Origin: Sipunculus nudus
Taxonomy: Eukaryota; Annelida; Sipuncula; Golfingiida; Sipunculidae
Assembly (NCBI GenBank): GCA_026874595.1
Contig: CM049311.1
Location: 66,011,953 to 66,075,952, forward strand
Reading direction: 5' to 3'
Length of the DNA stretch: 64,000 bases
The translations under genes and the position numbers were made by a program. Below are positions 4,027 through 60,149 of the stretch, one piece after another. The notes below the pieces were generated by a model. That model made no database searches. It saw only the letters and a list, made by a program, of their open reading frames with translations, and was not told the origin of the DNA. The first letter of the stretch is position 1; each line of letters opens with the position of its first letter.

Positions 4027-5400
4027 GTAATTGTATCCGCCAAAACAGAGTTTTGCGGATACTATGTTTTCAGCTGCACGCCGCCGCCGCCGCCGCGTAG
4101 GTTTCCGGAGAACTCCTCCGTAACCGCTGGGCGGAATTTTACGAAACCCGGGATTATGTTCGGGTCACATGTGAACTGCTGCGCCCCGATCTTGTTTTGA
4201 CCTCTGACCTTTCCTCTGCGCTCTGCGTCCGTTTGTGCGTCTGTTTCCACACATAAACCCACATATCTCGGGAACCGTTTGACGGATCAGGAAAATTTTT
4301 TTTGCAAAAATGTAGCCCTTGGAGAGCTTTATAACATACACAAAAAATGGTGGCGCCACCTGCAACCATGTTTGCACAGTGTCCATCTGTTCGTCTGCCT
4401 TGGGTTAAAATCACTCATATCTCTGCAGTGACTTGACTAATTCACCTGAAATTTGGCATGCGTATACATCCTGGATAGCTTTTCTGATTTTGTGACAGGT
4501 GGCGCCACCTACATTCACGTTTACGCTGCAGACATCCAAGCTCATATCTCGGGAACCGTTTGACCGATCAGGAAAAATTTTTTTGCACAAATGTAGCCCT
4601 TGGAGAGCTTTATAACATACCCAAAAAATTGTGGCGCCACCTGCAACCATGTTTGCACAGTGTCCATCTGTTCGTCTGCCTTGGGTTAAAATCACTCATA
4701 TCTCTGCAGTGACTTGACTAATTCACCTGAAATTTGGCATGCGTATACAACCTGGATAGCTTTTCTGATTTTGTGACAGGTAGCGCCACCTACATTCACG
4801 TTTACGCTGCAGACATCCAAGCTCATATCTCGGAAACCGTTTGACCGATCAGGAAATTTTTTTTGCACAAATGTAGCCCTTGGATAGCTTTATAACATAC
4901 ACAAAAAATGGTGGCGCCACCTGCAACCATGTTTGCACAGTGTCCATCTGTTCGTCTGCCTTGGGTTAAAATCACTCATATCTCTGCAGTGACTTGACTA
5001 ATTCACCTGAAATTCGGCATGCGTATACATCCTGGATAGCTTTTCTGATTTTATGACAGGTGGCGCCACCTACATTCACGTGTACGCTGCAGACATCCAA
5101 GCTCATATCTCGGGAACCGTTTGACCGATCAGGAAAATTTTTTTGCACAAATGTAGCCCTTGGAGAGCTTTATAACATACACAAAACTGGTGCCATCACC
5201 TGCAGCCATTTTTGCACAGCGTCCATCTGATTGTCTGCCACGGGCTAAAATCACTCATATACATGTAGTGGTTTGACTTATCTGCCTTAAATTTTGCATA
5301 TGTATACAACTGGGACGGCTTTCTGGATTTTGTGGTAGGGGGGGCAACCTTCATACACAATTTGGCTGCAGACATCCATGCTAATATGCAACACTTCACT
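4027..5400 (+). mobile_element. Composite repeat, GGTGGCGCCACC family, copy 1
   Basis: The left part (4027-4262) has a near-perfect hairpin (arms 4033-4046 and 4050-4062), a (GCC)n tract near 4079-4097 and a GC-rich stretch. It is followed by about four tandem units of ~280 bp starting at 4263, 4544, 4825 and 5105, the last one decayed. Each unit is a dimer of two diverged monomers, each starting ATATCTC and each carrying the palindrome GGTGGCGCCACC or a close variant (for example 4349-4360, 4498-4509, 4910-4921, 5059-5070). The same left part plus array recurs at 26.8 kb, so this is a dispersed element rather than a local satellite. No coding sequence is present. The family name is unknown to me; a non-autonomous DNA or Helitron-like element is possible. 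Confidence 0.75.
4033..4062. repeat. Subterminal hairpin of the GGTGGCGCCACC element
   Basis: Arm 4033-4046 pairs with 4050-4062 with one bulged base and a 3-base loop; the outer stem is GTATCCGC / GCGGATAC. The same hairpin with a diverged loop is at 26828-26856 in the other plus-strand copy, at the same distance from the GCC tract. That marks it as a structural part of the element. Confidence 0.7.
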
Positions 5401-7438
5401 CTATTTCCCCTTGCCACTTAATCCATGCCTCACTTCACCCGTTCCACTCTGATTTAGGCGGATACACTGATTTTGTCGACTACCCGTATTCTAGTTTCAA
5501 TTTACATCCTGAAAGGAGGATATGTTTTCACCTATGTTTATACGAATAAATTGTTCCAGTGGATTTGTTTACCTCGGCGGAAGTATGAACTTTATTGAAA
5601 TTTGTATTGATTTGTAATCGTTTTACCCTTCGATTCAAAAAGACAATAATCAGAATCCTTTCTGTGTGTATTTTTGTTACGAGTCCAGGATAACTATTGG
5701 GCAACTTGTGATTTGACTGCTGAAAACAAGGCATTCAAATCATCATGGACGCGGCGACGACATTTACATGGTCATTGGTTTAGAGGGTAACTGGAATTAA
5801 TTGGTGAGAACAAATCAGCATAACCTATCCCTGTTTTATAAGCAATGTCATTTCGATAAGTATTTAAAAACAAAATCATTCTTCCTTTATTTCAATTAAT
5901 CTTTATCACTAATGTCTTGGACTATTAAAACATTATCCGACAATTATTGTTTGAACTATCCTATAAATTAACCAAGCCAATACACTACGGTTTCTAAGCT
6001 TGCTGTCAAAAATATAACTTTAGTTAAATTCAGTAAATATATTTGTAACTATTCCGTTTTATGTTTTGTTAAGTTGTTGATTTAATTTTAGAATTACCGG
6101 TATGTCCTTTAATCAGCTGAGTTCTTTAGTTTCTTTCTGCATAAAGACCTAGCTAACTAGCTAAATATTGAATACCAAGCTTATTCAGATAATATAAAAG
6201 ATACCTTGTGGTTCAAACACATGATGTGTTTTTTTTAAAACAAGTTCCGAATGGATTAATGCTGAAATGGACCGGGCTCTTAAACGTAAATTACGCTCAC
6301 ATTTTACAAAGATAGTGTGTCAGGCTTTATAATTTTTAGAAACAGGCGCTGCAAGCAAAACACTGATTATTGACGACGTGAACGTTTTCTTTTAAAATTA
6401 TGAGATGTTCGTTTTAAGTGCCCCTCAAATATGGACATGCTGCGGTTATCTCCGATAACATATGAGCGATAATTGGTGAATTGTTCACGGCTAATCTACA
6501 AGAGTCTGACGACAACAAACTCTGCAAAAAATCGTCCCACAATAAATCTCCAATCTGTCTGATGGTACCTAGCCGTCCAGACTGGAGAAACCGTGCAGTG
6601 TGAGACGGTGAATATGCAATGTATTTCTAAGAGATAGTCGATCTTTTATCAGGAGGACCACAAAAACGCCAAGATCTCCTTAAGAAATAATGGACAGAAC
6701 CTGGCTGATATACATTTGAAAAGCTTGCGTGGTTTCTAATATTTCAACGATCATAAATAAAACGTGCATTGCTTTATGCTGTTTCATTAAAATCGTTGAT
6801 TTTTTAGTTATTTGATCCCACCTGTCTCACGATTATTATGGGAGCAGGTGCTCCTTCGTTTCTTGAATTGCTCTGTGTAAGATTCATTCAATAATGGAGC
6901 TAGAGCTACCACGCCCATCCCGCCCATAAGGTTCATTTGGTATGCGTGGAATTCAAAAGTCTTCCTTTCTCACGATGTCAGATTTTAAGCCAGACGCTTT
7001 GTTACCTGATAAAGAGACTAATTACACCTACGATGCGAATTATCTTGCTTATTTCTCGGTACGGTATTGAATATCATTCAGTATTTTCCTCAAATGCATT
7101 TATATTCCTTAAAGAATAACAAGAGCCAAAGTATTCAAGAAATCGGGGATTGGAATGACGATTCTCAGGCGATTCTTCTGCAATGTTTTATGACCGACCT
7201 TTACTAGGTTTTGGTAGGAGGGAACGTAATCCGCCCTCATCGAAGCGCTTAATTTATCGCCTTCTGCTGCATAGAACCAGCGTTATGCCTACCTTTTATC
7301 TGCCATTTGTTATTTCTGACTTACACTGAGCCTGATTTTCTACAACATGTTAATGAACATAGTAATGTTGACAACCATACAAATATGTAGCTTAAGGTGT
7401 TTGGTTGCATCTTTGCGGACGATGAAAGTTCACCATTT
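5401..7438. other. Unique intergenic DNA
   Basis: No gene, RNA or repeat shared with the rest of the window was recognised. Composition is ordinary AT-rich non-coding sequence. Confidence 0.45.
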
Positions 7439-8509: not shown

Positions 8510-8695
8510 AAATCAGATTCTGTAACACTATCATTTATTCCTAAAACAACCCTAACATTACAATTCACTAAATTAATACAATTAAACAGTATATCAGCGG
8601 TATAACAACAAATCAATACAATCACACAGTAAAATAAACAATGTGCACAGTACCTGGACACCACCACCGTCACAACGATATATAACAATATACAT
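8510..8695 (+). repeat. Solo arm of the 36.6 kb inverted-arm element
   Basis: The block reading AAAACAACCCTAACATTACA, then CAGTATA.CAGC.GTATAACA and ACCTGGACACCACCACCGTC, matches the left arm of the element at 36597-38667. It also matches the reverse complement of that element's right arm near 38400-38610, including CAGATTCTGTAACACTA, which the left arm at 36.6 kb has lost. No matching opposite arm is seen nearby, so this looks like a truncated or solo copy. Confidence 0.65.
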
Positions 8696-25546: not shown

Positions 25547-25790
25547 AAGGGGCCTGGACAGCTGAGTGGTAAAACGCTCGGCTTTCTCCGCTGGCGACCC
25601 GGGTTCGATTCCCAGCATGGCCATGAAAGTGGGTAGTAGTTGCCCGTCCATGGCCGGTGGTTTTCTCCGGGTCCTCAGGTTTCCTCCACCCATGCAGACT
25701 ACCGAACGCCTACATCCGAGCCATGGAGAGTGCCCCTTATTAGTTATTATAACTAGTTGTACAGTCCATGTAAAATAAATAAAATTTATA
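25547..25790 (+). mobile_element. tRNA-derived SINE, family B, near complete
   Basis: The head at 25550-25622 has an A-box-like CAGCTGAGTGGTAAAACG and a perfect B box (GGGTTCGATTCCC at about 25600-25612) within a tRNA-like arrangement. The body contains GGTGGTTTTCTCCGGGTCCT and CAGGTTTCCTCCACC, a motif common in invertebrate SINE bodies. The element ends in an A/T-rich tail (AAAATAAATAAAATTTATA). It is the best preserved SINE in the window. The short frames across it on both strands are by-products. Confidence 0.8.
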
Positions 25791-26821: not shown

Positions 26822-27455
26822 TTAATTGTATCCGCCAAAAGAAATTTTGCGGATACTATGTTTTTGGCCGCCGCCCCGCCACTGCCGCCGCCGCGTTCGT
26901 TCCGGAGAACTCCTCTGAGACTACTATTTTTTTCCGAAACTTACACTAATTATTGGGTCACATGTGAACTAGTGCCTAACCAATTCGCTTTCACCTCTGA
27001 CCTTTCCTTCCTTGCCCGGCGTCTAATTGTGCGTCTAATTCCACACATGAATCTACATATCTCGGGAACCGTTTGACCGATCAGGAAAAAAAATGTTCAA
27101 ATGTAGCCCTTGGATAGCTTTATAACATACACAAAAATGGTGGCGCCACCTGCAAACATGTTTGCAAAGGATCCATCTGTTCGTCTGCCTTGGGTTAAAA
27201 TCACTCATATCTCTGCAGTGGTTTGACTAATTCACCTGAACTTCGGCATGCGTATACATCCTGGATAGCTTTTTTGATTTCGTGACGGATGGCGCCACCT
27301 TCTTTCACGTTCACGCTGCAGACATTCATGCTTATATCTCCGGACTGGTTTGACTTATATTCCTAAAAATTTGCAAGTGTATAGACCTCCTTTAGCTCTT
27401 TATAATATGCAAAACTGGTGGCGCCACCTACAACCATTTTTGCACAGCGTCCGTC
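26822..27455 (+). mobile_element. Composite repeat, GGTGGCGCCACC family, copy 2
   Basis: It starts with the hairpin GTATCCGC...GCGGATAC (26828-26856) and a GCC-rich tract. Then come TTCCGGAGAACTCCTC and GGGTCACATGTGAACT, as in copy 1, followed by four monomers with GGTGGCGCCACC-type palindromes (for example near 27141 and 27418). Copy 1 has about twice as many monomers, so copies differ in array length while the left end is shared. Confidence 0.75.
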
Positions 27456-28879
27456 TTTTTATCTGATATGCTTGAGTGCACATCAACCGGGTCGCAGGAA
27501 TCCGTGATGGTAAAACAGTCGCACACGGTCGCACAAAGTCCAGGGCCTTGTATGCGATTTAGGGCCTTGCCAAATATGCACCAACACATGTAGGCCCACG
27601 ATGTAACAGATGTGAAGATAATATTAAACAAATTTATGTCGTGGTTGGTGAAGTGTGATGTGTACACGTGTGTGAAGTGGAACCACCGAAATTGTAAACA
27701 CATGATATTGACTTGAAATGATTGAAAATTGAGATTTTTTTCTCATTACTGCAGTAACAAATGTAAAATTCCTTGAAAAATATAAATCTAATACTTTTGT
27801 ACTGGCATATGTTTCTTTAACATACTTGTGCCATTTAATTTTCAATCATGTTCATGTTATACTCTTTGTTTTTTTTTTTAAATTTTCTTTCATTCAGTAT
27901 GAATGCTTATTGCGTATAAGTCATGGCCATCATTGTTACTATTTTTACAAATAAAACTGGAATTTTTGCATTTTCTTCTAAGGTCTATTCCATGGACGGT
28001 TTCTTTTGTATGTATATGTGATATTGCTGATCAGTTTCTCATGTCACATGGTACATGTGTTGGTGTCTATTTGAGAAAGACCCCCACCATATGTTAGGCA
28101 CTGGCTTGGGGCGCCCGAGTGTGACTGTACGCTCTTCCGAAATATGTTTCGAAGGATTTGTATCCACAACACCATACATATAATTGTCGTGTTCGCCCCA
28201 AACCGTGCGCACCGGTTAATTTTATTATAAATCATTCTTTATCATGTTAAAATGTAAGACAATAAATGTTTACGCAGATTAGTTTTATTTTCCCACAAAA
28301 TGCCAATGTAACTTGTATTTAATACATTTGTATGTAATACATAGTATTTAATACTTTGTTGACAGTACTCAAAGATCGCCTCATATGTGCAATTAACTCG
28401 GCAAATAGATATTCTGGACTATGGGGTAGCACAGTGAGGTATATGTAGTGTATAATCACAGCCTTGTACCACATCGCAAGTTCTTAAACAAGAACTTTAC
28501 TTGACGTGTTAAGCAACAGTACTATTGACCTGTCATTCGCAGTTAAATAAGATGTGAGTACAGAATATTAATGAAAGATTAACTATTATGACCGTGTTCA
28601 GCACTTCTTCCTTTTTGTTGTGTATAGAAATATTTCTTGTATACCAATAAGTCATCAAGCAGTCATACAAATTTGTAGTATATCAGGCCTACTTGAACAT
28701 TTCCTACCAAATGTCTGTAGAAGCGGACGCGACTTTGACTTTAAGCCTGTCATTAAACCAATCTCATTCAGACGTCTTCAGACGTCTAAATATTTAACAG
28801 AAATAATATTTTTACGTCAAAATCAATTTTAGACCTGTTTAGCTAAATATTGATATTATTTAGGAAACATGTTTGTACA
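27456..28879. other. Unique intergenic DNA
   Basis: No supported gene. The small palindromic motif AGACGTCTTCAGACGTCT lies near 28770-28788. Confidence 0.4.
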
Positions 28880-29990: not shown

Positions 29991-30716
29991 CACACCATTG
30001 CATAAGCTAACAAGTAACAGTACGCAAAAATGAAAACCGTCCATTCGATGTATCAAACGCCTTTATCTGATTGGCTAGATCTTGTATAACGTCTCCCACT
30101 GCAAGAGCCTTGATCTAAAAATAGAAATGTTCGCTGGGTTCAGAGTTGGGTGCGTACAAGTATGCCAATTACTTATAATTGGGTTAATAGCTTTGTGAAT
30201 GATTTATGAGAAAGCAGGCCCTGGGAGTACGGGGGGGGGGGGGGGGGCAAAGTCTCATCGCGACTAAGCGAGAGGTCTGTATATATGAACATATACCTTG
30301 GAATTGTGGTACCTGCCTATTAAGATTATGAGCTGATCATTTTGGTTTCGGTTCCAAACCTTAGTACTCTCGTTAACCAGTGTACAGCTGAAAGGACAGG
30401 ATAGATATAGCATCAGTGTCTTAAAAATTAAAGAAAAAGAACTGCATTACAATGTTTTTATTGCATGTTAGCTGGTTACACTGTACGTTAACTCCATGGT
30501 TGCTGCTCTGGGATTTACATAACACCTGCTATTACTGAGAATAGACTGAAAAGGACAATCCATGGACGTACCATCTGGTTCTTTAGTTAAATGACGGTGG
30601 TTGCACTCGAACTTTGTCACGGAACTCCAGTAAGGCAACTCCTAGTAAATAAAGATTTTTGGTCTTGAACTATTGGGAAAGATGACAAATGTGTATAATC
30701 AGAAGCGGATCAAGGA
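29991..30716. other. Unique DNA with a G17 run
   Basis: G run at 30231-30247; no gene seen. Confidence 0.4.
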
Positions 30717-36596: not shown

Positions 36597-39262
<2,666 letters not shown>

Positions 39263-39329: not shown

Positions 39330-39957
39330 TTTGGAAAATTTTTTAAGTTCAGGAGGTGTCGTATGGTCAGAAGTAGGTCAACAAGGGCAAAATGCAAACT
39401 CGATCTGTAACGGGTCATTATCAAGCAACACAGCAAAAATCATGCCAGTATATGCAGGCATTGTGAAAAAAAGTCCACACATGTGCATTTTCCATAAAAA
39501 TTTCTGTCTTTCATGAAATTTTCTATGTTTAGGAGCCGTAAAACAATCAAAAGTAGGTCAACTGTGATGAAACGCAAACTCGATCTGTAACTGTCATTAT
39601 CTGCCCACACAAAAAAAATCAGGGTGGTATCTGCAGGCATTGAGGAAAAAAAGTCAGTACATATGCATTTGTTATGAAAATTTTTATTTTTCATGAAACT
39701 TTCTATGTTCAGGAGCATTCAAATGGTCAAAAGTAGGTCAACTGAGACAAAACAAGAACTCGATCTGTAACTGGTCATTATCTGCCTACACACCAAAAAT
39801 CAGGCCCGTATCTGAAGGCACTGCGAAAAAAAGTCCATACATGTGCACCTTTTTATGAAATTTTCATGTTAGAGCACCGTCAAACGGTCAAAAATAGGTC
39901 AACTGGGACAAAACGTGAACTTGATCTGTAACTGGTCATTATCTGCCAACACACCAA
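39330..39957 (+). repeat. 180 bp core repeats, first block
   Basis: Anchors CGATCTGTAA at 39401, 39581 and 39761 (TGATCTGTAA at about 39921) give a period of 180 bp. Each unit also carries AAGTAGGTCAAC, ATCTGCAGGCATTG and TCATGAAATTTTC. The block stops in the middle of the CACACCAAAAATCAGG motif, where the nested element starts. Confidence 0.85.
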
Positions 39958-42900: not shown

Positions 42901-43266
42901 ACTTCCAGTGACCCGGAGTGGGACCCTGCATCTATTATCTGTAATCAAAGCAAATGACTACAATAGAGCCTCAAGAAAAAAATCAATAACTAGCTTATTT
43001 TCAAGCTTTTACTTCCAAATTTCAGATTTAAACAAAATAAATATTTATGCTCTTAATTTCTCAAAGGAACGAAGTCGCAAAGACCCAGTTTTCGGCTTGG
43101 TAGGAGATCTTGGGGACATCTAACATTATGCTGAATTTTGGATTCCTAGGTCTTACGGTTTCAAAACGTGCCACATCTACGGACGGACGGACGGACGGAC
43201 AGACGGACGGACGACGGACAATGGACCACGACTATAGCTCAGATGACTTATAGTCAGCTGAGCTAA
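39958..43266 (+). mobile_element. Nested pearl-like element inserted in the core array
   Basis: The host motif CACACCAAAAATCAGG is split: the left part ends at 39957 and the rest resumes at 43267. The insert starts CAAGGGACCTATGGGTCACG. It ends with an ACGG microsatellite (43179-43219), a hairpin at 43236-43264 (AGCTCAG / CTGAGCT outside, TGAC / GTCA inside) and CTAA at 43263-43266. CTAA fits the CTRR end of Helitron-type elements, and no target duplication is evident, also as expected for Helitrons. An internal diverged repeat pairs about 41645-41745 with 43067-43165 (shared GACATCTAAC). The AT-rich interior has no recognised protein. Confidence 0.65.
43179..43219 (+). repeat. (ACGG)n microsatellite of the nested element
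   Basis: Seven or so ACGG-type repeats with small interruptions just before the 3' hairpin. This is the diagnostic position in pearl-like elements. Confidence 0.9.
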
Positions 43267-43860
43267 AAATCAGGCCAATATCTGCAGGTATTGTGAAGAA
43301 AAGTCTGTACAAGTGTATTTGTCATGAAAATATATATTTTACATGAAATTTTCAATGTTCAGGTGCCGTAAAACAGTCAAAAGTAGGTCAACCGGGACGA
43401 AATGCGAACTCGATCTGTAACTGGTCTATATCTACCCACACACCAAAAATCAGGCCAATATCTGCAGGCATTGCGAAAAAAAGTCCGTACATGTGTATCT
43501 GTCATGAATATTTCTATTTTTCATGAAAATTTCTAAGTTTAGGAGCCGTAAAACGGTCAAAAGTAAGTCAACCGGGACGAAACGCGAACTCCATCTGTAA
43601 CTGGTCTATATCTGTCCACACACCAAATATCAGGCCAATATCTGCAGGCACTGCGAAAAAAAGTCCGTACATGTGTATCTGTCATGAATATTTCTATTTT
43701 TCATGAAATTTTCTAAGTTTAGGAGCCGTAAAACGGTCAAAAGTAGGTCAACCGGGACGAAACGCAAACTCGATCTGTATCTGGTCTATATCTGCCCACA
43801 CACCAAAAATCAGGCCAATATCTGCAGGCATTGCGAAAAAAAGTCCGTACAATTGTTTGA
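43267..43860 (+). repeat. 180 bp core repeats, second block
   Basis: Continuation of the array after the nested insertion. AAATCAGGCCAATATCTGCA recurs at about 43269, 43449, 43629 and 43809. These units are more alike than those left of the insertion. Confidence 0.85.
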
Positions 43861-57689: not shown

Positions 57690-57905
57690 GAGATAAAAAG
57701 GAAACACGGCCGTGTTTCGTTCACAGACGAGTGAGCCTTTCGGGGGATCCTCAGTGGTATTTCCAAGCGTAGGGGGCGACAACTCACCCAGGACTTGCAG
57801 CAGCGGAAATCGCCAGGCCTGGTTAACACCATGATATAAAAGACGGGTAGCGTGTGCCACCTGCTTTTTTCCTTGTCCGAGACCGGAATGGAATTCCTCA
57901 TATGA
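57690..57905 (+). mobile_element. SINE family A, 5'-truncated body
   Basis: It shares, in order with the copy at 9818, the blocks GTTCACAGACGAGTGAGCCT, TTCGGGGGATCC, CTCACCCAGGACTTGCAGCA, GGCCTGGTTAACACC and GTCCGAGACCGGAATGGAAT. The tRNA-like head is absent. It ends in a tandem duplication of GGAATTCCTCATAT just before the TRIM element. Confidence 0.6.
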
Positions 57906-57924
57906 TGGAATTCCTCATATGTAC

Positions 57925-58080
57925 TGTTACGTGGTGACATAAAAGCGGAAAGAACTGTCTCGCTAATGAAGCTTGCTTTTCTAGATAAGCGGTTAGCACG
58001 CCGGACATGTGCGCCACCGAAATAGGTTCGAATCCCGAATCGGCCCAGAATTTTCCCCTTAACAATTTGTCTTCATAACA
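57925..58080 (+). repeat. LTR1 of the TRIM
   Basis: 156 bp, TG...CA ended, with the imperfect terminal inverted repeat TGTTAC / ATAACA. It contains AGATAAGCGGTTAGCACGCC (A-box-like) and AGGTTCGAATCCC (B box) about 40 bp apart. It aligns with LTR2 along its whole length, by eye at roughly four-fifths identity. Confidence 0.75.
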
Positions 58081-58082
58081 AA

Positions 58083-58095
58083 TGGGGGCTCGTCC
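58083..58095 (+). other. Primer-binding site for tRNA-Pro
   Basis: TGGGGGCTCGTCC is the complement of the conserved 3' end of tRNA-Pro including CCA. This is the primer used by several retroelement groups. It sits 2 bp after the LTR, the normal position. Thirteen bases match before the similarity ends. Confidence 0.75.
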
Positions 58096-58185
58096 AACGT
58101 GACAGTAAAATTTGTGGCCCATAGAATAAGCTCACCAAAGTGTGACTCCTGGGGTAATTAGTCTTGTTCTGACAGCAGAATGCTG

Positions 58186-58197
58186 TTAAGAGGGGTG
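58186..58197 (+). other. Polypurine tract of the TRIM
   Basis: GTTAAGAGGGGTG: a short, slightly impure purine run abutting the first base of LTR2. This is where plus-strand priming occurs in LTR elements. Confidence 0.6.
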
Positions 58198-58353
58198 TGT
58201 TACGGGGTGATACTAAAGCGGACCAAACTGTCCCACTAGTGAATCTTGCTTTTCTACCGAAGTTGTTGGAACGCCGGACATGTGCGCCACTGACATGGGT
58301 TCGAATCTGGGATCGGCCCAGTATTTTCCCCTGAACAATTTGTCTTCAGTAAT
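58198..58353 (+). repeat. LTR2 of the TRIM
   Basis: It starts TGTTACGGGGTGATA. It shares TTGCTTTTCTA, ACGCCGGACATGTGCGCCAC, GGTTCGAATC, ATCGGCCCAG and CAATTTGTCTTCA with LTR1 in order. The A-box-like part is mutated, while the B box is intact. The 3' end (CAGTAAT) has lost the terminal CA. Confidence 0.7.
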
Positions 58354-60149
58354 ATTACATAATAAATTCATCTAACTATAAAAAATGAGTTGGTCACCTC
58401 CCCAAAGACGTATCATAATTATCATATATCCAAGTGAGATTTTAGAGTAACCTTTATTTTTAAAATATTTGTTCTGATACCAGTAACAACCCACCCTTCA
58501 AGCGTCATTGAAAATGTTTGTTTAGTTAATCCGACTCAGGGGACTAACAGAAAATACTTAAGGCAGACTGGGCCTACTTGACAGAGAGCATGAAATAAAT
58601 GGCTGACGATTAACTCTATGTCAGCAAATGTCGAGGTTTACATATTTCAAATTACATGTCCACTACTTCATGACATAAGAGGCTTGCGTTTTCGGAGTTG
58701 ATACATTATTAACGAAATTCCTTGTAGTTCCATAGAATTTGACCTGCATTTGCCATAAATCTTTGATTTATAAGCCCAAACGAAGAACTGCATGGCCTGC
58801 GTCCCGCCCCCGCTGGCCCAGGGTAAGGCAGAGATGGCTATACTTTGTGGCATATACATTCAAGGACGGGAAGTAGGTGGCCGTTTTCCAAGCAATCAAT
58901 TTCAAGTCTTCCTAAATGGCCTGGATCAATGCCGTTAATGCAGGCGTAATATAACATCCCCAGAAAATACTCAAGTAACTTCTCGTTAATGTTTGTAATA
59001 TAAATAATATGGCAGTGCATGACATGTTGAAATCAAACACGGACAAGGTATGTACCGTAAGGACTTTTCCACACTAGCTCTGGTCTTTCTGGCGGAGCAG
59101 CAATTCATAAACGATTTTCCTGGGAATTAATCCTTATCCCCTCAGCAGGAACATCCAAATAAAAAGTACTTCCGAGAAATTTGTCCCTTATAACAGTAAA
59201 AAAAACCAACTTATTATTTCTTCTCTGTTTCATAAGACTGTTTAAGCTCAAATACCTTCTGTTGAGCTGCTTTGAATACAAAATACAAAGGTAACAAAAA
59301 TATTAATTTTAAGTCTTCTTTTTTGTCATTTTTTTCGCAAGCCGTTAAGTTTTTCATGACGCTCTTAAATTATAAAATAGAACAAAAGAACACCAAGACA
59401 TTTTACATTTTTAGAATTAAAAAAGGAGGTGTTAGTAGTCAACTTTGTGTACATTCTTGACACCATATAGTCAAAACCCACATTTCGGTTTATAAGACCT
59501 CTCATACTAAGACTCTGTTGTGTAAAAATAAAAATTTATTTCAAGACTTTGTTCCACCATTTCTCGATTTGAGAGGGATGTAGACTTATTCACTCCCAAA
59601 AGAAAAAGTTTTACATAATAGCTCCTCCTTTGTTCATCGGTCATTTTTGCCTCTGCCAGGAGGTCATGCATTCATTCTCGTTCTTGAGCGTGTTTGTGTG
59701 TGTGCATGTCTGTTCAGAATGTGTCTATGAAGAATCAATCCCAGCAGATGATCCGGATTCAGTAACGTCATGAAGGAATATTCCCAAATACACCGTCATA
59801 TGCACAAATGAACCTTGGAATATTGGCCGAATAGGTGAAAACACGGTATTAGTTGTAACCAAAAAAAGGGACCCCACAAATGGCTGTTGCTTGCATTCCT
59901 TAGAATGCAGAGTTCTGGTTCTAATTTATCACTAAGTCATCGCTATTGATGTTGCTAATTGCTGCCTTTTCCCAATCACATCAAAGAAACAATTATGTGT
60001 TTGCTTGATGCCAAATTCGATTCATTCCTACAGATATAATTGAAAATTACTATTTCCTAACTGAAATGCCATATTTATACATATTTTAATGTTTAATTCA
60101 TTTTTATGTCCTTTCGTCAAGTTGGCAAAATAGGTATTCTATATATCAT
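58354..60149. other. Unique intergenic DNA
   Basis: No supported feature. Confidence 0.4.

Follow-up and report, generated by a model that had tools for sequence, protein, structure and literature searches.

The element considered here lies on the + strand at positions 57925-58354 of a 64-kb window (the window being the whole stretch of DNA that was analyzed), where a pair of LTRs and the interior between them make up 430 bp. The direct repeat was first detected as 151 nt at 83% identity, with an E value of about 1e-40 in a blastn comparison against the 64-kb window, and global alignment lengthens it to 156 bp in LTR1 and 157 bp in LTR2. An earlier note on this DNA had claimed two LTRs of about 156 bp within an extent of 57925 to 58353; the repeats and the start are as claimed, but the true end is 58354, 1 base further on. 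The repeat unit is bounded by TG and CA in LTR1 and by TG and TA in LTR2; the inverted ends of LTR1 read TGTTA...TAACA, and LTR2 reads TGTTA...TAATA. The parts of the element and its immediate flanks are these:

57921-57924, no strand assigned: candidate 5′ target site duplication GTAC, sharing 3 of 4 bases with TTAC
57925-58080, + strand: LTR1, 156 bp, TGTTA...TAACA, from alignment with LTR2
58081-58197, + strand: non-coding interior, 117 bp, from the LTR alignment, the overlapping frames being without a Pfam match
58083-58095, + strand: primer binding site (PBS) TGGGGGCTCGTCC for tRNA-Pro, 13/13 to the start of the published PBS (PMC1769482)
58188-58195, + strand: polypurine tract (PPT) AAGAGGGG, the sole interior purine run of at least 7
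58198-58354, + strand: LTR2, 157 bp, TGTTA...TAATA, from alignment with LTR1
58355-58358, no strand assigned: candidate 3′ target site duplication TTAC, sharing 3 of 4 bases with GTAC

In the global alignment, LTR1 and LTR2 differ at 27 of 156 columns, with 1 gap in addition, and the differences are made up of 13 transitions and 14 transversions. This corresponds to about 17% divergence and a K2P distance of 0.198; the copy is old and decayed, and very probably inactive. It should be kept in mind throughout that this single copy is the material behind the whole argument.

The primer site of the interior had been assigned to tRNA-Pro in the earlier note. In the part of PMC1769482 that bears on it, an 18-nt PBS complementary to the 3′ end of tRNA-Pro is given, and TGGGGGCTCGTCC, placed 2 bases internal to LTR1, reproduces its first 13 nt exactly; the runner-up in the window, on either strand, reaches 10/13. 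Over the full 18 nt the contrast shrinks, to 14/18 at the element and 13/18 at 30497. At the other end of the interior, AAGAGGGG is followed by TG and then by LTR2, just as the earlier note had placed its purine tract. Since the window has a purine run of at least 8 in roughly every 330 bases, the tract is telling for its place only. The description of the interior as some 100 bp of non-coding sequence is right as to coding capacity and wrong as to length, which is 117 bp: the only two stop-to-stop frames of at least 90 aa that overlap the element (137 and 90 aa, both on the minus strand) have no Pfam match, and none of the 10 frames scanned, out of 46 such frames of at least 90 aa in the window, reached a curated Pfam cut-off.

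Each repeat of the pair holds a tRNA-like block, with segments resembling box A and box B:

57982-57992, + strand: degraded box A in LTR1, TAGATAAGCGG, 8/9 informative letters
58025-58035, + strand: box B in LTR1, GGTTCGAATCC, 10/10 informative letters, 32 nt after box A
58255-58265, + strand: degraded box A in LTR2, TACCGAAGTTG, 7/9 informative letters
58298-58308, + strand: box B in LTR2, GGTTCGAATCT, 9/10 informative letters

Scores were taken against the generally known consensus forms, TRGCNNAGYGG and two spacing variants for box A (9 informative letters) and GGTTCRANYCC for box B (10), for a maximum of 19. LTR1 scores 18/19, a value equaled in 0 of 2000 dinucleotide shuffles, and LTR2 scores 16/19, equaled in 6 of 2000. 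Among 812 non-overlapping 156-bp tiles drawn from both strands of the window, after dropping those that touch the element, none reaches 18 and 2 reach 16. When all positions of both strands are scored, which is stricter, one other place comes out at 18 (25559, + strand, divided by a tile boundary), along with four further places at 16 (6150-6210 on the + strand; 185, 10759, and 51025 on the - strand). Hence, a score as high as that of LTR1 is rare, and that of LTR2 would not be convincing by itself.

The boxes sit at the same place in both LTRs, with 32 nt between A and B, which is a pol III spacing and bears out the SINE-like arrangement that had been proposed. Box B, claimed for each LTR, follows the consensus throughout in LTR1 and with a single mismatch in LTR2, and its GGTTC is present in both. 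For box A, the earlier note had seen a similar segment in LTR1 and there alone; the segment is there, but the restriction does not hold, given the 7 of 9 letters in LTR2. In the form TRGCY...YGG used for Helenus elements, box A reads TAGAT...CGG in LTR1 and TACCG...TTG in LTR2 and is thus intact in neither. Different letters have been lost in each, however, and at every informative position the consensus letter is kept by at least one LTR. These complementary losses fit a box A that was intact at insertion, by what is a lenient test with two sequences to choose from. The altered anticodon-arm region said to be common to both repeats is a stretch of 20 nt at LTR positions 74-93, identical in the two.

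The other place that scores 18/19 belongs to a tRNA-like block at 25549-25720 on the + strand (boxes at 25559 and 25602), which is followed by non-tRNA sequence. It is probably a separate tRNA-derived SINE, whose likeness to the LTR block is confined to box B.

A functional tRNA gene or a fresh tRNA pseudogene is out, in view of the lack of Rfam and default ARAGORN hits, the poor stems, and the lack of a fold. There is no Rfam match at the gathering score anywhere in the window, nor a tRNA match at E values up to 10 in 57800-58500, and ARAGORN found none at its default threshold and 0 again with three further option sets on 57801-58500. In the tRNA register, each LTR block forms 3 of 7 acceptor pairs and 3 of 5 T-stem pairs, with G-T counted as paired, and the folds of both blocks are no better than those of shuffled sequences (z of 0.15 and 0.29). 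When the ARAGORN threshold is lowered to 50%, two tRNA-Val(gac) entries that fall on the LTR blocks (57971-58046 and 58259-58331) are among those listed; at that setting, however, the output runs to 488 entries for the window and to 9 for the 700-bp stretch, numbers that show the setting to be unspecific, and the entries were given no weight.

A repeated unit with A- and B-box-like segments is also what two nearby copies of a tRNA-derived SINE would present, in which case the primer site and the purine tract would be there by chance; 8-nt purine runs are indeed common in the window. The unit, however, spans TGTTA to TAACA, which is to say LTR ends; the tRNA-Pro site is an exact 13 nt lying 2 nt inside, against a best of 10/13 elsewhere in the window; and the purine run stops 2 nt before LTR2. 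Moreover, within the window, neither unit by itself is framed by matching 4-bp flanks (GTAC versus AATG for LTR1; GGTG versus TTAC for LTR2). With LTR ends, a well-placed PBS and PPT, and no single-unit flanks that match, chance-adjacent SINEs are very improbable. The flanks of the whole element do better, GTAC and TTAC agreeing at 3 of 4 bases, but equal agreement is found at 6.1% of window positions at the same spacing, so that the target duplication is no more than suggestive. The 5′ flank also carries two identical 17-bp units in tandem (ATGGAATTCCTCATATG, 57888-57921), the second of which ends 3 bases before LTR1.

From its structure, we assign the element with high confidence to the Helenus type of TRIM (TRIMp3), as a single old, non-coding copy with a tRNA-derived, pol III-type promoter in its LTRs. 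Helenus elements are TRIMs with tRNA-derived sequence in the LTRs, reported from fungi, animals, and a plant (Kojima 2024, PMC10886601), with 51 families across five orders of pteriomorph bivalves alone; the same paper proposed the name TRIMp3 and an origin by insertion of a SINE into an LTR. The families there are 311-1263 bp long, with a PBS that in animals is complementary to the 3′ end of a tRNA, tRNA-Pro being among the bivalve primers; target duplications in animals are 4 bp; and the LTRs have a box B GGTTC and, in most families, TRGCY and YGG of box A (PMC10886601). The element described here likewise has short LTRs with a box B GGTTC, the PBS inside LTR1, the PPT before LTR2, and an interior without coding sequence, and its 430 bp fall within the range of PMC10886601. 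It shares with bivalve Helenus the tRNA-Pro primer. Its candidate target duplication, with 3 of 4 bases agreeing, would be of the 4-bp animal size, and box A, of which every informative letter survives in one LTR or the other, is degraded in each of them.

The Helenus-type reading thus draws on the LTR pair and its ends, the 13-nt PBS, the placed purine tract, the box scores, the length, and the primer. Against it we have counted the degraded box A, the absence of a tRNA match or fold, the TTTT runs and TATA-like sequences considered below, the flanks that agree at 3 of 4 bases, the margin of 14 to 13 for the 18-nt PBS, the absence of a second copy in the window, and the high box scores elsewhere.

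The suggestion in the earlier note that a TRIM carrying a tRNA or SINE module in its LTRs lies here is supported by this structure of LTRs, PBS, PPT, and box segments; its further suggestion that the family might be undescribed fails at the level of the kind, since such elements are already published as Helenus, bivalves included (PMC10886601). The Helenus kind has thus been found again, independently and without tools, on the basis of a single decayed copy, which adds little beyond Kojima 2024. If the host turned out not to be among Kojima's listed taxa, the copy would widen the range reported for Helenus.

Two further kinds of TRIM offer a useful comparison. The parallel with plant Cassandra that the earlier note had drawn is apt, a pol III-type module lying inside the LTRs in both cases; as far as the relevant part of PMC7215508 goes, Cassandra is likewise a TRIM whose LTR contains a pol III promoter, but it is 5S rRNA-derived and from plants, in contrast to the tRNA-like element here. 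An animal TRIM derived from 5S (421 or 434 bp; PMC10886601) also has a pol III-type promoter in its LTR and differs in having 5-bp target duplications and a tRNA-Leu primer.

A copy of biv-TRIM, a second TRIM known from bivalves (PMC6934838), would be of the same general build, PPT included. We compared it by its published description, and in the portion of that source drawn on here, biv-TRIM has repeats of 202-218 bp, an interior of 77-80 bp, no clear PBS, and in most copies the PPT GGGGAGA. The LTRs of 156 and 157 bp and the 117-bp interior of our element do not fit these dimensions, the conserved 14-nt interior segment of biv-TRIM, TGATCCCAAAGGAC, is matched here at no more than 9 of 14 positions, and that portion of PMC6934838 makes no mention of a tRNA-like LTR block. 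It is hardly conceivable, then, that the element is a biv-TRIM copy.

If the Helenus-type assignment is accepted, the question becomes which polymerase the LTRs served, and three short features bear on it:

57938-57945, + strand: TATA-like CATAAAAG in LTR1, by pattern match, a putative and possible pol II promoter
58051-58054, + strand: TTTT directly 3′ of the LTR1 block, from the listing of T runs, a possible pol III terminator
58324-58327, + strand: TTTT directly 3′ of the LTR2 block, from the listing of T runs

Judged from sequence, the LTRs appear to hold a tRNA-derived, pol III-type promoter, as the earlier note had proposed, and the box A- and box B-like segments in both LTRs argue for it. 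Promoters of the tRNA type direct pol III to begin transcription roughly 10-20 nt ahead of box A. Boxes A and B of LTR1 would accordingly recruit TFIIIC and pol III to such a start site, and an RNA running from LTR1 through the interior into LTR2 would carry a repeated stretch at both ends. tRNA-Pro would then prime minus-strand DNA and the purine tract the plus strand, while reverse transcriptase and integrase might be provided in trans by an autonomous element of the Gypsy type. Gypsy elements have been proposed as the helpers of animal Helenus, with Gypsy-13_CGi listed with tRNA-Pro, and the pol III function of Helenus still awaits experimental validation (PMC10886601). We infer the steps of this cycle from the anatomy, which is what is observed.

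The same TRIM build could instead have been transcribed by pol II from the TATA-like box, leaving the tRNA-like block as the relic of a captured SINE with no role in transcription. CATAAAAG at 57938 has a counterpart, TACTAAAG at 58211, at the same LTR position in LTR2, and the block, as noted, has neither a tRNA fold nor an Rfam match. Moreover, the TTTT behind the LTR1 block might often stop a pol III transcript within LTR1, before the interior, and so hamper the production of full-length RNA. However, a box B with at most one mismatch in either LTR, and a box A whose place and spacing are kept, are not what a relic would lead one to expect, and neither AATAAA nor ATTAAA is present in the element. 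We regard transcription by pol II as unlikely, if far from negligible. A still more tentative idea, and one we consider distinctly doubtful, retains the pol III promoter and takes the TTTT, found at the same place behind the block in both LTRs, as a two-product switch: pol III transcription would mostly terminate in LTR1, yielding a short tRNA-like RNA, and reverse transcription would have the read-through RNA alone as its template.

As for further copies, blastn showed no second copy of the element in the 64-kb window. A 20-mer identical in both LTRs has 1 exact match in the genome_contigs collection, in an actinobacterial MAG, and 0 in viral_contigs; these collections are prokaryotic or viral and thus silent on copy number in animals. 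The MAG match is best taken as chance, because only those 20 bases match, the context is GC-rich, and about half a match is expected by our own arithmetic from the collection size and equal base frequencies. Isolated box B matches occur on the + strand at 1370 (GGTTCGAATCC) and 22990 (GGTTCGAATC), and at neither does the combined box A/B score come to 16. Both were considered as possible solo LTRs or second copies, but no direct repeats of at least 16 bp surround them, and their match to the LTR block is limited to 10-12 bases at box B.

The window holds repeats of other kinds. A 280-bp tandem unit is present in four copies at 4262-5387, and a related stretch, about 78-83% identical, lies some 21 kb away at 26823-27465. 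A 180-bp tandem unit forms two arrays, 39363-39864 and 43265-43851, which are about 3.4 kb apart and about 80% alike in their longest matches. Lastly, an interspersed repeat of about 110 bp occurs three times, at 8527-8637, 36657-36776, and, inverted, 38397-38519, with the copies 81-92% alike.
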